A stretch of 64,000 nt of DNA from Monodelphis domestica (Eukaryota > Chordata > Mammalia > Didelphimorphia > Didelphidae), in assembly GCF_027887165.1 (NCBI RefSeq), contig NC_077235.1:4305818-4369817 (forward strand), read 5' to 3'. Each line of letters begins with the position of its first letter. Within the stretch, counting starts at the first letter, position 1. The position numbers and the translations under genes are program-made. Under the pieces are notes generated by a model. That model ran no database searches, was not told the DNA's origin, and saw only the letters and a list, made by a program, of their open reading frames with translations. Below are positions 1 through 59,223 of the stretch, piece by piece.

Positions 1-3000
1 TCTATCCCTAGATAGCTCTTCTTGCTCTCTCACCCCCCTCTATCTCTTATTTCTGTTTCCTCTTTTTCTTTTTCTCCCTTTCTCTGTCTCTCATTCTTAC
101 CTCTCTATATCTTTCTGTCTTCTCTCTCTCTGTCTTTCTCTGTCCTCTCCCATTTTTGGGTTTCTAATTATGTTTCTGTATCTGTCCTTTCTTTCTTTTT
201 CTGTCTTCTCCCCTCTCTATTTCTTTGGCTCTTCACCTCCTCTTCCTCCCTCTTTCTTCCTCTGCCTCTCTCTCTCCTCCCATCCTCTCCCCTCTTCCCT
301 CCCCCATCCTCCCTACTTCTTCTTCCTCTCTCCTCTCTTTTCCTTTCATTCTTCTTTTTCTGTCTGTCTCTCTCTGTCAGAGTCTCTCTCTTCTCTCTCC
401 TATCTATCTCTCAGTCTGTCTTTCTGTCTATCTTTCACACTCTGTTCTTTGTCTTCCTCTTTTTCTTTGTCTATCCTTTCTCTCTTCTCTCTCCTATCCC
501 TCTCTTTGTCTTTTTCTCACTTGTCTTTATCTCTCTATCTCCACCTTTTTTCTCTGTCTTTCTATACCTCTTCCTTTTTTCATCTCTGCCTATTATTCTC
601 TTTCTTTCTCTCCCTCTTTGCTGTCTCTTTCCCTCTATCTCCTTCTCCCCCCTCTTCTCTATCCCTATTGCTCTTTCAATCTAAATCTGTCTTTATTTCT
701 CCCTCTCTCCCTCTTTACCTTTCTTCTTTGTTTCACTCTCTTTCCATCTCTTCTTTTCTCCTTCCCTCTCTCAGTCTCTATCTTTACCTGTCTCTTTTTC
801 TCTTATTCTTCCATCTCTATCTCTCTCTTTTTCTATTTATCTGTCTTTCTCTTTCTCTGTCCCTCTCTCTCAGAATCAATTTCTGTGTCTCTGGTTTTTC
901 CCTCTCTTCTCTGTCTACCTTTCTCTGTCTCTCTTTCCCTCCCTTTCTCTGTCTCTCTTTCCCTCTCTCCCCCTCCCCTTCTTGACCTGTCTTCCTTCTC
1001 CCTCCCTCCCTTCCTTCCTCTCCCCCTCTCCCCCTTTCTCCTCTCTCTCTTTCTCTTTCACTCTCTTCTCTATCTTCTTCTCTTTTCCTGTCTATCATTT
1101 CTCTCTCTGTCCTCTTTTGTCTGTCACTCTCTCCCTCTTTTCTCTTTATCTGTCTCTCACAGTCTCTGTGTTTTTGTCTATCTCTCTTTCTAGTCTCTAT
1201 TTTTCTCTCCTCTCTTTCTCCCTCTTTTCTGTCTCTCAGTCTCTCTCTCCCTCTCTTCTCTATCTCTGTTGCTCTCTCAGGCTCAGTCTCTACTTCTCTC
1301 TCTCCCTACACCCTCTTTACTTCTCTTCTTTCTCTGTTTCATTCTCTCTCTTTCCATCTCTTCTGTCTCCGTCTCCTCTGTCTCCCTCTGTCTCTCTCTT
1401 TCTCTCACATTCTCTTCTGTCTTTTTTCTATGTATCTGTCTTTCTCTTTTTCCCTCTGTCTCTCTGTTCCTCTCTCTCAGAATTGAGCTGTCTGTTTTTC
1501 CCTCTCTCTCTATTTTTCTTTTCTTTTTTTCATTCTTCCTTCTCTTTCCATCTCTCTCCTCCCTATCTCTCTGTTTCTGTTTCACTCTTCTCTCTCCCCC
1601 CTCTCTCTGTCTCTTTTTCTGTCTCATTCTTCTTTTTCTCGTTCTCTGCCAGACTGTCTCTCTCTCCCCCTCCTATCAACTAGTATCTGTCTTTCTGTCT
1701 CCTACTTCTCTTTGTCTTCTTATCTTTTAGTCTGTCCTTTCCCTGCCTCTGCCTTTTTTGTCTCTCTCTTTTTCTTCTTTGTCTACCTCTTCCTTTCTTT
1801 TGGTGTCTATTTTTCTCTTGCTCTCTTCTCTTTCTCCCTCTCTTCTCTATCTCTGTTCTTTTCTCAGTCTCTTTATTTCTCCCTCTTTCCTGTACCCTCT
1901 TTACCTATCTTCTCTCTGTTTTACTCTCTCCATTTCTTTTGTTCTCTCCTTCCCTCTCTGAGACTTTTTCTGTCTTTTCCATTCTTCATCTCTGTCTCTC
2001 TTTTTTCTATGTATGTCTTTCTCTTTCTTCCTGTCTCTGTTTATCTTCTCTATCTCTGTCCTTTTCTCAGAATAGATCTGAGTTTCCCTTTCTTCTCTCT
2101 ACTTATCTCTATCTCTTTCCCTCCCCCTTCTCAATCTGCCTCCCCCAAGCCCTCTCTGCCTCACCTCTCTCTCGCTGTCTCTCCCTCCCCGTCCCCCTCT
2201 CCCCCTCCCTCTCTTCCCCTCTCTCTGGTTTATATATATATATCTTTTTCTTTCTCATTCTTCTCTCTCTTTCAGACTGTCTTTCTCTTTCCCTCCTCTT
2301 TATGTCTGTCTCTCTGTGTTAGACTTTCTCTCTTGTTCCTCTCTATCTCTCAGTCTCTGTCTTTCACTCTTCTCTTTGTCTTCCTCTCTTTTGCTCTCTT
2401 TGTCTATTATGTCTCCTGATTCTTTCTCCTCTCTGCCTCTCTTAGTCTCCCATCTTTTTGTCTCTCTCTCTTCTACCTCTTCCTTTATTTTATCTATATT
2501 ATTCTCTTCTCTTTCTTTTCTGTCTTTCTCCCTTTCTGTCTCTCTCTCCTTCTCTTCTCTATCTCTGTTGCTGTCTCAGTCTCTATTTCTCCTTCTCTCC
2601 CTGCGCCCTCTTTACCTCTCTTCTTTCTGTCTCACCTTTCCATCTCTTCTGTCTCTATCTTCTCTGTCTCTTTCTCTCCATTCTTCCATCTCTGTCTCTT
2701 TTTTCTATGTATGTCTTTCTCTTTCTTCCTCTATCTCTCCGTCCCTCTCTCAGAATCAATCTGTCTTTGTCTTTCCTTTGATCCTCTCTGTCTACCTCTC
2801 TTTCCCTCTCCCTCCCTTCTTGACCTTTCTGTCTCCTTCCCTCCCTCCATTCCCCTCCTCTCTCTCCCTCCTCCATATCTCTCAGTTGCTGTCTTTCTTT
2901 CACTCTCTTCTTTGCCTTACTCCCTCCTCTCTCTCTCCATCTCTTTCTTTCTCATTCTTTCTCTATTTCTGTCTCTCTCCTTCCTCTCTATATCTCAGTT

Positions 3001-3230
3001 TCTGTCTATCTGTCTTTCACTCTCTTCTCTCTCTTTCCTGTTTTTCTCTCTCAGTCTCTATCTTTTTGTCTCTTTGTCTACCTTTTCCTTTCTATCTCTC
3101 TATTATTCTCTCTCTCATCTGCATCTCTCTCTTCTATCTCCATTGTTCTTTCAGCCTCAGTCTCTCTTTATTTCTCCCTCTCTCCCTATATCCTCTTTAC
3201 CTCTCTTATTTCTGTTTTACTCTTCTCCTT
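1..3230. repeat. Pyrimidine-rich tandem array, ~600-bp diverged units
   Basis: The + strand is almost entirely C and T. A phrase reading 'cttctctatctctgttgct' followed by a Cag, then a 'tctttatttctccctctctccc' type block and 'ctctttacct', recurs near 654, 1255, 1853, 2553 and 3128, a spacing of about 600, 600, 700 and 575 bp. A second phrase, 'ctcagaatcaat' and variants, recurs near 870, 1480, 2068 and 2750 with similar spacing. This is diverged tandem organisation with an irregular period. No gene is supported, and the open frames across it are low-complexity Ser/Leu/Phe strings. Confidence 0.7.
2230..2243. repeat. Short (TA)n
   Basis: Seven TA dinucleotides form one of the few runs in the first 6 kb containing adenine. 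It is a minor microsatellite. Confidence 0.8.
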
Positions 3231-57139: not shown

Positions 57140-59223
57140 CCTTTCTGTCTCTGAATTTCAGTCTCTTTATCTGCATGTTCCTTTCCTTTTTTTCCTCTCC
57201 CTCTCTTCTGTCTCTGTCTGTCATTTCTATGTATCTCTCCCTTTCTCTCTCTCCTCTTCTCTTTCTCTGTCTCTTCAATTTCTGTCTCTCTCTTTCTCTC
57301 TACCTCTCTATCTCTCTCCTCTTCTATTCCTCTCTGTCCCTCAGTCTCTGTCTCTCTCTGTTTCATTTTTGTGTCTCTCCATTTCTCTATGTCTCTCCTC
57401 TTCTCTCTCTCTCCTCTCTTATTTCTCTCTGTCTCTGAATTTCAGTCTCTTTATCTGTATCTTCCTTTCCTTTTTTCCTCTCCCCCTCTTCTGTCTCTGT
57501 CTTTCATTTCTTTGTATCTCTCCCTTTCTCTCTCTTCTCTCTTTCTCTGTCTCTCTCTTTCCCCTCTTTTATTTCTCTCCATCTCTCCCTTTCTGTCTCT
57601 CTCTCTGAATTTCACTCTCTTTATCTGCCTGTTCCTTTCCTTTTTCCCTCTCCCTCTCTTCATTCTCTTCTGTCTCTGTCCTTCTCTCTGTCTCTCTTCT
57701 GTTTCTTTCTCTTTCTTTTCTATTCCTTCCCCCCCCCCCCTCTCTCTCTCCTCCTCCCCCATCTCCCTGTCTTTTCGCAGTCTTGGTCTCTCTGCACTGC
57801 CTCTCTGTCCCTTTCTTCTATTCCACTCATTCCTCACTTTCCAGTTATAGCCTTTCATTTTCCACATGCAGTACAGTTGTCTATATGTATACAGCTCCCA
57901 TTCCCAAGTCACTTCACCCTAATATCCACTACTCAGTGTGTTTTCTAAGGAGCTAGACACACGTTTGTTCTCTTCTCCCAAAGGTGCAGTTTCTCCTCTG
58001 CTGTGTCTCTCAGCCTCTCCTCAGTGTATCCACCCATCTCTCACTCACAGACAAGCTTTCTCTCTGCACAGACACTGCCACTCAGTTCAACCGTGCATCG
58101 CTCGCTCACTCAGCTGGTCTTTGTCAAACATCACTTGTACTCACTCCTCTGTCTCTCACGCTCTAGGTCTCTCTTCATTCCCATTTTGCCTTGGAGTTCC
58201 AGAGTGCACCCTCAGCCTCTACATTCATGCATCGCTCACTGCCTGCTTTTCCACATGCATTTCTTCCTCCATCCATCACAGCTCCTCAGATCAGCCGTCT
58301 CGCAAAACATATTCATACCACTCGTCCCTTTCTTCACAGCTTGACTGCACAGTCACTTCACATATCAGAGTTTGGGTCTCTCCTTTCGCATCACCCACAC
58401 CCACACCCCCCACAAACCCCCCCCCACACACACTTTTTTCAATCCATTCTTCTCTCCCTATTTCTCTTTATTCCTTCCTCTTTCACCCTCCAGCCAAATC
58501 TATGCACCCACCATTCAGAGGTGAGCTTTCTCTCTGCATACATCTCCAACTCTATCCATTCCTTCCCTCTCAGCCTTCTCAGGATCTTGACCTTCTTACT
58601 TTCCTGGTGCTCTTTCTCTCTCCCCGCCCTCTGTTTTCTCAATGATCCAACCTTCACCGCTCAGCCTTCTGCTTTCACTCACTTCACATACCTCAAGGTG
58701 GACGTCTCTCTAGCTTCAAATCTCTCACTCAGCACAGCTCCCTTTCCAGACATCTCTCCCACTCTTGGTCTGTCTTGCCTGGCACCTGTCATTTTCCCAC
58801 TTTCTCCATTCAGTCTTTTCTCCCCTTGGTGCTCATTCCTTCCTCAAGTTCTGTCCTGGCACTTCATTAGTCTCTACCTCCTTAGGTCTTTGCCCCCATT
58901 AGGTTCCACTGCCGAAAAGTCAACATTGCTATGTCTTACACTCTCTAGATCTCAATTTCCTTTCAGGTCTCCTTCTCTGAGAGACCCTCTCCAAATGTTT
59001 CACCTTCTTTAAGCCTCAACCAACTGTCTTCGCTTCATAGCTGCTCCAACATTGACCCATCTTGCATTCATTCCATGCCTCCTACCATTCATCCTTTTGC
59101 CCCTCTCTAGATTTGATTCTCACTTCAAATATCAGAGGTTGGGTCTCTCATTTCCCTCCTGTTTTCCTGCCTGTATGTCACACGTCCTCATCTTCTCCCT
59201 CTCTGTCTTCATGCATCCATTCT
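57137..59223 (+). repeat. Large direct duplication, copy 2 (~2.1 kb)
   Basis: Nearly identical to 10724-12863 in the same orientation. It includes 'gaatttca' markers at 57153, 57436 and 57607, a C-run near 57728, and the complete island from about 57823. The match ends at 59223, after 'atgcatccattct'. Its island differs from copy 1 by only a handful of bases and shares the 'cattcccattttgcc' spelling with copy 3 rather than copy 1. Confidence 0.9.
58393..58424 (-). other. G-quadruplex-type motif (minus strand), second copy
   Basis: The same four C runs as at 12033-12064, carried in the second copy of the duplication. Confidence 0.75.

Follow-up and report, generated by a model that had tools for sequence, protein, structure and literature searches.

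A diverged tandem array of kilobase-sized, C/T-rich units in the genome of Monodelphis domestica

The region and its strand asymmetry

The stretch of DNA analyzed here, hereinafter the window, comprises 64,000 nucleotides of the genome of Monodelphis domestica (NCBI RefSeq assembly GCF_027887165.1, contig NC_077235.1, positions 4,305,818 to 4,369,817, forward strand). Most of its + strand consists of C and T. Between 26.4 and 57.2 kb, diverged units of ~1.1-1.2 kb form a head-to-tail array that also has a dimer of ~2.23 kb. The other parts of the window include a left C/T block, a triplet array, four islands and a nucleolin retrocopy inserted into one of these islands. An earlier note had described positions 1 to 59,223 as a domain with an almost purine-free + strand; the asymmetry is real but was overstated.

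Over positions 1 to 59,223, the + strand is 85.7% pyrimidine (86.75% once three islands are removed), and 55 of the 64 non-overlapping 1-kb segments of the window contain at least 80% pyrimidine, which bears out the long asymmetry. One of these 55 segments, 61,001-62,000, falls inside the nucleolin retrocopy, where the bias returns (61,010-62,340, 96.8% pyrimidine), whereas the right flank (62,903-64,000) is just 50.8% pyrimidine. The C/T domain continues past the left edge of the window, and the ~59 kb are the visible part of its length. On the right, the bias assigned to this domain stands but the boundary does not: position 59,223 marks the end of a duplication, whereas the C/T array stops near 57.8 kb, and an island (70% pyrimidine) occupies the 1.45 kb that lead up to 59,223.

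The base composition of the array was determined over 49,230 bases (1-10,760 and 18,701-57,170, with the islands and the triplets left out) and amounts to 52.7% T, 33.6% C, 7.4% A and 6.4% G, with CpG at 0.09 of expectation. The ~14% purines in the stretch are mostly single and belong to phrases that recur, among them CTCTGTCTC, CTCTATCTC and TCTCATTCT. Pure-pyrimidine runs in the array have a mean length of 7.7 bases (maximum, 177), compared with 7.3 expected under random placement of purines, so that the strand cannot be called almost purine-free.

A kilobase unit in the C/T-rich array

Repeat periods were examined through the offsets between shared 11-base words with at least two purines, against 20 order-4 Markov nulls. 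In the main array (26,401-57,175, + strand), the offsets peak at 2,231 (360 pairs) and 1,171 (282 pairs), far above the null maxima of 42-70, and 12-base words yield peaks at 2,236 and 1,175 (null maximum, 48). Additional peaks at 3,397, 4,456 and 5,619 are near multiples of the unit. Base-wise autocorrelation displays mainly short even periods, and the kilobase unit is not detected in that way. Between 18,701 and 57,170, there are 283 direct pairs (at least 100 bp long, at least 80% identical and with at least 8 purines; the longest is 1,501 bp), whereas nine Markov nulls contained 0-22 such pairs, the longest of 142 bp. The long matches are direct, and no inverted match of more than 60 bases is found among the matches listed.

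A profile of the unit, constructed from 13 units (1,230 model positions), produced 138 matches in the window, 42 of which exceed the best score (111.5 bits) reached in eight simulations that served as the null (best scores, 94.9-111.5 bits). Near-complete matches, covering at least 800 of the 1,230 positions, number 16, and 15 of these are located between 27.4 and 52.9 kb. The unit at 42,366-43,342, all but 18 bases of which had been kept out of the profile, scores 551.6 bits. Matches above the null cover 81.4% of 26,401-57,175, 11.9% of 18,401-26,400 and 9.8% of 8,101-11,410. Because the two ends of the profile overlap by ~100 bases, as we read the consensus, the true unit is probably shorter than 1,230 positions. 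A kilobase unit is thus present many times over, head to tail and in a single orientation. The "many different C/T phrases" of the earlier note do exist, but from 26.4 to 57.2 kb they mostly belong to one diverged unit. Its suggestion that pyrimidine-only units were amplified comes near to the pyrimidine-rich kilobase units in direct orientation that are observed. A mapping based on one seed unit was dropped as evidence, since background alignments, even to triplet arrays, reach 61-68% identity.

The segment that precedes the main array (18,401-26,400, + strand) appears to be a part of the same array that is either older or more strongly scrambled, with word offsets near 1,021, 909-980, 516 and 223 (peak of 63 compared with null maxima of 15-29).

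The 13 units are on average 75.9% identical to each other (range, 66.2-90.7%), and the differences among them consist of 51% C/T exchanges, 6% A/G exchanges and 43% transversions, an ordinary share for the latter. The two units most alike (90.7%) are separated by 17.5 kb and are contained within two 3.3-kb blocks, 27,669-30,992 and 45,181-48,514, that are 77.2% identical in BLAST, which implies that multi-unit blocks have been copied as well. Purines account for 11.0% of the majority consensus. Because the individual copies are richer in purine (13.2-15.8%) than this consensus and 43% of the differences are transversions, purines are not being excluded, contrary to the other option raised in the earlier note; the bias seems to go back to a C/T-rich founder and now appears to be decaying.

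Islands and the nucleolin retrocopy

By their alignments, the islands in the C/T-rich DNA form one family of four. All three that had been noted previously, near 11.5, 17.5 and 57.8 kb, exist, namely i1 (11,411-12,863, 70.4% pyrimidine), i2 (17,431-18,400) and i3 (57,779-59,223), all on the + strand, but they are not the only ones: a fourth, i4, begins at 59,224 and is split into two parts, ~59,224-59,367 (69.8% identity to i2 over 126 columns, E 3e-15) and ~62,771-62,902 (62.4% over 149 columns, E 0.001).

Islands i1 and i3 are 99.8% identical over 1,465 columns although they lie 46 kb apart, and from 11,400 onward they differ at three places only. Together with their left array edges, they constitute two copies of a duplicated segment, ~10,770-12,863 and ~57,176-59,223, the second of which ends exactly at 59,223. 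The array edges of this duplication (10,769-11,311 and 57,176-57,725) are 94-97% identical per 100 columns up to 11,258, past which there is a (TC)n run that differs in length between the copies. The edge carries 5 substitutions and several 2-4-base gaps in ~530 bases (counted by hand). The excess of substitutions in the edge (5 in ~530 bases, compared with 1 in the ~1,443 bases of the island; Fisher p = 0.0066, on a small, hand-counted number of events) hints that array DNA changes faster than the adjoining island.

Island i2 is an older relative of i1 and i3, to which it is 72% identical in segment A, 62.5% in segment B and 66% in segment C. It shares with both, in a different relative position, a 397-column block without a single mismatch, gaps only (i1, 11,633-12,028; i2, 17,988-18,381; i3, 57,993-58,389). 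The order of the segments is A, B, block in i2 and A, block, B, C in i1, and the counterpart in i2 of segment C of i1 is the end of the block plus the sequence beyond it. On the simplest reading of these alignments, the block would have been copied from i2 into the ancestor of i1 and i3; a weak match between 12,118-12,191 and 18,001-18,075 (E 6e-4) fits this order poorly. The near identity of i1 and i3 and the mismatch-free block shared with i2 demonstrate recent copying among the islands.

At all four junctions between C/T tract and island (near 11,470, 17,455, 57,830 and 59,265), the tract ends in AG and is followed by nTATAGCC, a shared arrangement that suggests a repeated module of C/T tract plus island. 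In form, this junction resembles a splice acceptor. The array contains 33 acceptor-like words, fewer than order-3 Markov sequences (69 and 74) and more than shuffled ones (20 and 21). A 24-base island pattern had no matches in viral_contigs, a result that is uninformative on eukaryotes.

The retrocopy (59,368-62,770, limits approximate, - strand) separates the two parts of i4. One of its pieces matches nucleolin (E 1.4e-29), and its frames are broken into pieces between stops in three frames; among four pieces compared with Pfam, one is above the RRM_1 cut-off (E 1.4e-6), one is below the cut-off and two have no match. When the flanks of i4 are joined, they align to i2 as a single alignment (277 columns, 65.7% identity, 95.4 bits), compared with a maximum of 78.3 bits and a mean of 74.9 in 44 control joins, the pieces for which came from a less pyrimidine-rich flank. 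Because the joined flanks align to i2 as one, the retrocopy was inserted into island i4. In i2 coordinates, the flanks overlap by ~15 bases, and the best direct matches at the flanks, examined for a target-site duplication, are short and imperfect. The acid-codon tract of the retrocopy (61,010-62,340, pyrimidines on the + strand) has a ~100-base period with 11 copies and grew to about 1.3 kb at or after the insertion into i4; the acidic stretches of nucleolin itself are, we assume, much shorter.

Near the right flank, six open reading frames compared with Pfam gave two matches, both under the cut-off, and a search of PDB with one translation, in a wrong frame, found nothing convincing. The sequence at ~63,100-63,300 may represent the tail of a MIR-type short interspersed element, which it resembles.

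The left block and the triplet array

The left C/T block (1-8,100, + strand) is 87.9% pyrimidine and runs past the window edge. Its best self-alignments score 152, 138 and 102 bits (offsets 1,299, 712 and 1,294), whereas the best in five Markov nulls score 60-87 bits, and a weak ~1.29-kb repeat (0.59 + 0.70 kb) can be discerned within about 540-3,235. The number of self-alignment hits in 1-8,100, 35, falls inside the null range of 10-43. The block also harbors a purine-containing simple repeat, a perfect 47-base (AC)n run at 6,345-6,391. The adjacent C/T block (8,101-11,410, + strand) is partly related to the 1.1-kb unit and contains local 161-174-base repeats near 10.4-11.4 kb (word spacings of 161, 174, 275 and 168). 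Between i1 and i2 lies a 3.3-kb triplet array of CCT, CTT and CCA (13,331-16,640, + strand, 92.8% pyrimidine), which in the tandem-repeat table (TRF; 150 of its 437 rows listed) has period 3, 1,082 copies and 77% matches.

Tests for triplex, RNA and coding roles

The array contains 26 perfect mirror repeats composed of pyrimidines alone (arms, 10 bases or longer; loop, at most 7), which cover 1,399 of its 49,230 bases (2.8%); order-3 Markov controls contain 26 and 34. In contrast, arms of 15 bases or more occur in 15 of the mirror repeats, compared with 0-2 in four controls. In mouse, non-mirror pyrimidine repeats gave little or no S1-seq signal (PMC9171763). With mirror repeats covering only 2.8% of the array, triplex formation is plausible only at scattered runs; the mirror symmetry does not extend over much of the domain, and mirror-type triplex (H-DNA) across the region as a whole finds no support.

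Words of the type bound by PTBP1 are dense in the array (TCTT, 54.7/kb; TCTCTC, 43.3/kb), but order-3 Markov sequences reach comparable densities (54.9-58.0/kb and 41.9-43.1/kb, respectively), so that there is no excess. Rfam gave no match at the gathering score in the window, which leaves no link to ribosomal DNA (rDNA); the rDNA terminator word GTCGACC and its complement were not found, and a search for tRNAs in the window retrieved none. The longest stop-free stretch in 18,401-57,178 spans 451 codons, below all 20 shuffles (543-1,316), and provides no coding signal. The array is probably without function, and no test performed here points to one.

Origin of the array and alternative explanations

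We consider it likely that the domain is an old, worn, non-coding tandem array, the units of which were probably C/T-rich before they multiplied. A founder already close to 90% pyrimidine would have multiplied head to tail as ~1.1-1.2-kb units, with later amplification also in the form of ~2.2-kb dimers and multi-unit blocks, presumably by unequal exchange and replication slippage. Since the copies share one orientation, the strand bias of the founder would have become the bias of the entire domain. Point mutation would erode this bias, short (TC)n and triplet runs would grow within the array, and the islands would represent four copies of one spacer family adjoining C/T tracts, some of them recently copied among themselves.

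Several observations weigh against this scenario or limit its reach. The evidence comes from one assembled window. A majority consensus of pyrimidine-rich copies tilts toward pyrimidine, so that the gain of purines in the copies may be in part an artefact, and misalignment may inflate the transversions along with all other classes of differences. Identity between units is flat with distance (r = -0.045; 713 of 2,000 permutations were as low), which gives no sign of present-day exchange between neighboring units. The offset peaks at 1,287, 1,415, 3,827, 4,741 and 4,998 fit no single exact unit length and imply that the length of the unit varies; short inverted matches, 10 in 18,701-57,170 compared with 0-1 in the Markov nulls, are also present. 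Direct pairs that are 150 bp or longer and 75% or more identical cover 99.1% of 18,701-57,170 and 47.5% of 1-10,760, raw figures without a null. In 1-8,100, no profile match exceeds the null, and the word-offset peaks (29-32) do not surpass the highest of 20 nulls (12-256, where some of the Markov runs seem to loop); given the lack of an above-null profile or offset signal in this block, a single origin of the whole 59 kb is not shown.

An artefact of assembly, in which C/T-rich reads were over-extended or the i1/i3 locus was placed twice and the true locus is shorter, appears rather unlikely. Parts of the pertinent reports state that, in human assemblies, GA/TC tracts show strong enrichment at gaps and an association with segmental duplications (PMC10234299) and that HiFi coverage falls at GA-rich sequence (PMC9186530), and the minimal divergence of i1 from i3 is compatible with a locus placed twice. 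However, the substitutions and gaps in the array edges are too many for one locus read twice, although two haplotypes might account for them, and the copying of one read would not yield units that are on average 24% apart; we would expect reads to bear out the assembly. The dense pyrimidine words, with TCTCTC far above its frequency in mononucleotide shuffles (5.4/kb), would befit a transcribed locus for a PTBP1-binding architectural RNA, akin to human PNCTR, but the equal densities of TCTT and TCTCTC in order-3 Markov sequence and the missing rDNA link make such a locus very unlikely.

Still less credible is active exclusion of purines, whereby selection or a triplex-linked process would keep the tract pure. 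The extreme length of the bias and the 15 long-armed mirror repeats would accord with it, but the purine content of the copies relative to the consensus and the share of transversions run in the opposite direction, and the mirror repeats are sparse and, for arms of 10 bases or longer, their number is within the order-3 Markov range. Finally, slippage of a (TC)n microsatellite combined with point mutation, without any kilobase unit, would explain the short even periods of the autocorrelation and the unremarkable word offsets of 1-8,100; in 18.7-57.2 kb, however, direct pairs of kilobase length and the word offsets greatly exceed the Markov nulls, which makes its probability close to negligible, and a plain microsatellite as the sole explanation of 26.4-57.2 kb is ruled out by the direct pairs, the word offsets and the profile matches.

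Comparison with known repeat systems

Macrosatellites and other large-unit arrays consist of kilobase units arranged head to tail, with dimers and block copies. The array described here resembles them in its single-orientation kilobase units, dimers and copied blocks but differs in that its unit is of low complexity and C/T-rich and the copies are only ~76% alike. The earlier note measured the region against microsatellites, said to rarely exceed a few hundred bases, a yardstick that is too narrow in view of the known long GA/TC tracts and polypurine satellites.

With human GA/TC tracts, as portrayed in parts of two reports (PMC10234299; PMC9186530), the region shares kilobases of one-strand pyrimidine bias, difficulty of assembly and proximity to a segmental duplication: the 55 segments with at least 80% pyrimidine, counted by plain pyrimidine content rather than by the published GA/TC measure, are accompanied by the i1/i3 duplication. 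It is distinguished from these dinucleotide tracts by its 59 kb and by the diverged ~1.1-1.2-kb unit of its main part. For the dinucleotide tracts, PMC10234299 prints "300-6500 kbp" in one place, whereas its discussion indicates that most of the assembled ones are shorter than 6 kbp. The AAGAG satellites of Drosophila are likewise long arrays in which one strand carries the purines and the other the pyrimidines, and triplex is reported for them in parts of PMC6316130, but their unit is five bases of pure purine, compared with ~1.1 kb, ~14% purines and sparse mirror repeats here. PNCTR, according to sections of PMC6224606, is a pyrimidine-rich RNA of more than 10 kb that originates from the human rDNA spacer; it resembles the present array in the length and pyrimidine richness of its repeat DNA and in its abundance of PTBP1-type words, but is transcribed and sits in the rDNA spacer, whereas this array is known from DNA sequence alone and has no rDNA link. 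Among the titles and opening lines of abstracts listed for open-licence PMC papers, searched without the species name, none described the array. By its sequence, the array is best assigned to the class of large GA/TC-rich tandem arrays and is of unusual size but of a known kind.

Implications

DNA of low complexity that looks formless can be an old tandem array of large units whose events can be placed in sequence. In this case, the order is apparent from units that differ by 24%, a retrocopy that entered an already old island, and island copies with 0-0.2% divergence. Arrays of this type would escape notice once simple repeats are masked. Like human GA/TC tracts, the array lies next to a duplication, here a fresh one.

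The polarity of the tracts offers a further lead. Four sequences for which a common origin is not shown carry their pyrimidines on the + strand: the triplet array, the 1-8-kb block, the 1.1-kb array and, in the retrocopy that arrived later, the acid-codon tract. Each of them is large, and all are found inside 62 kb. Four independent seeds would agree by chance in 1/8 of cases, so the shared polarity is only a lead, and the idea that pyrimidine tracts preferentially grow on a particular strand in this region is a doubtful one. A fixed local polarity, such as the direction of the replication fork, could decide which strand expands, newly inserted DNA included. Should it be general that unrelated seeds of a region expand with a common strand polarity, the direction of replication could be tested as the cause.

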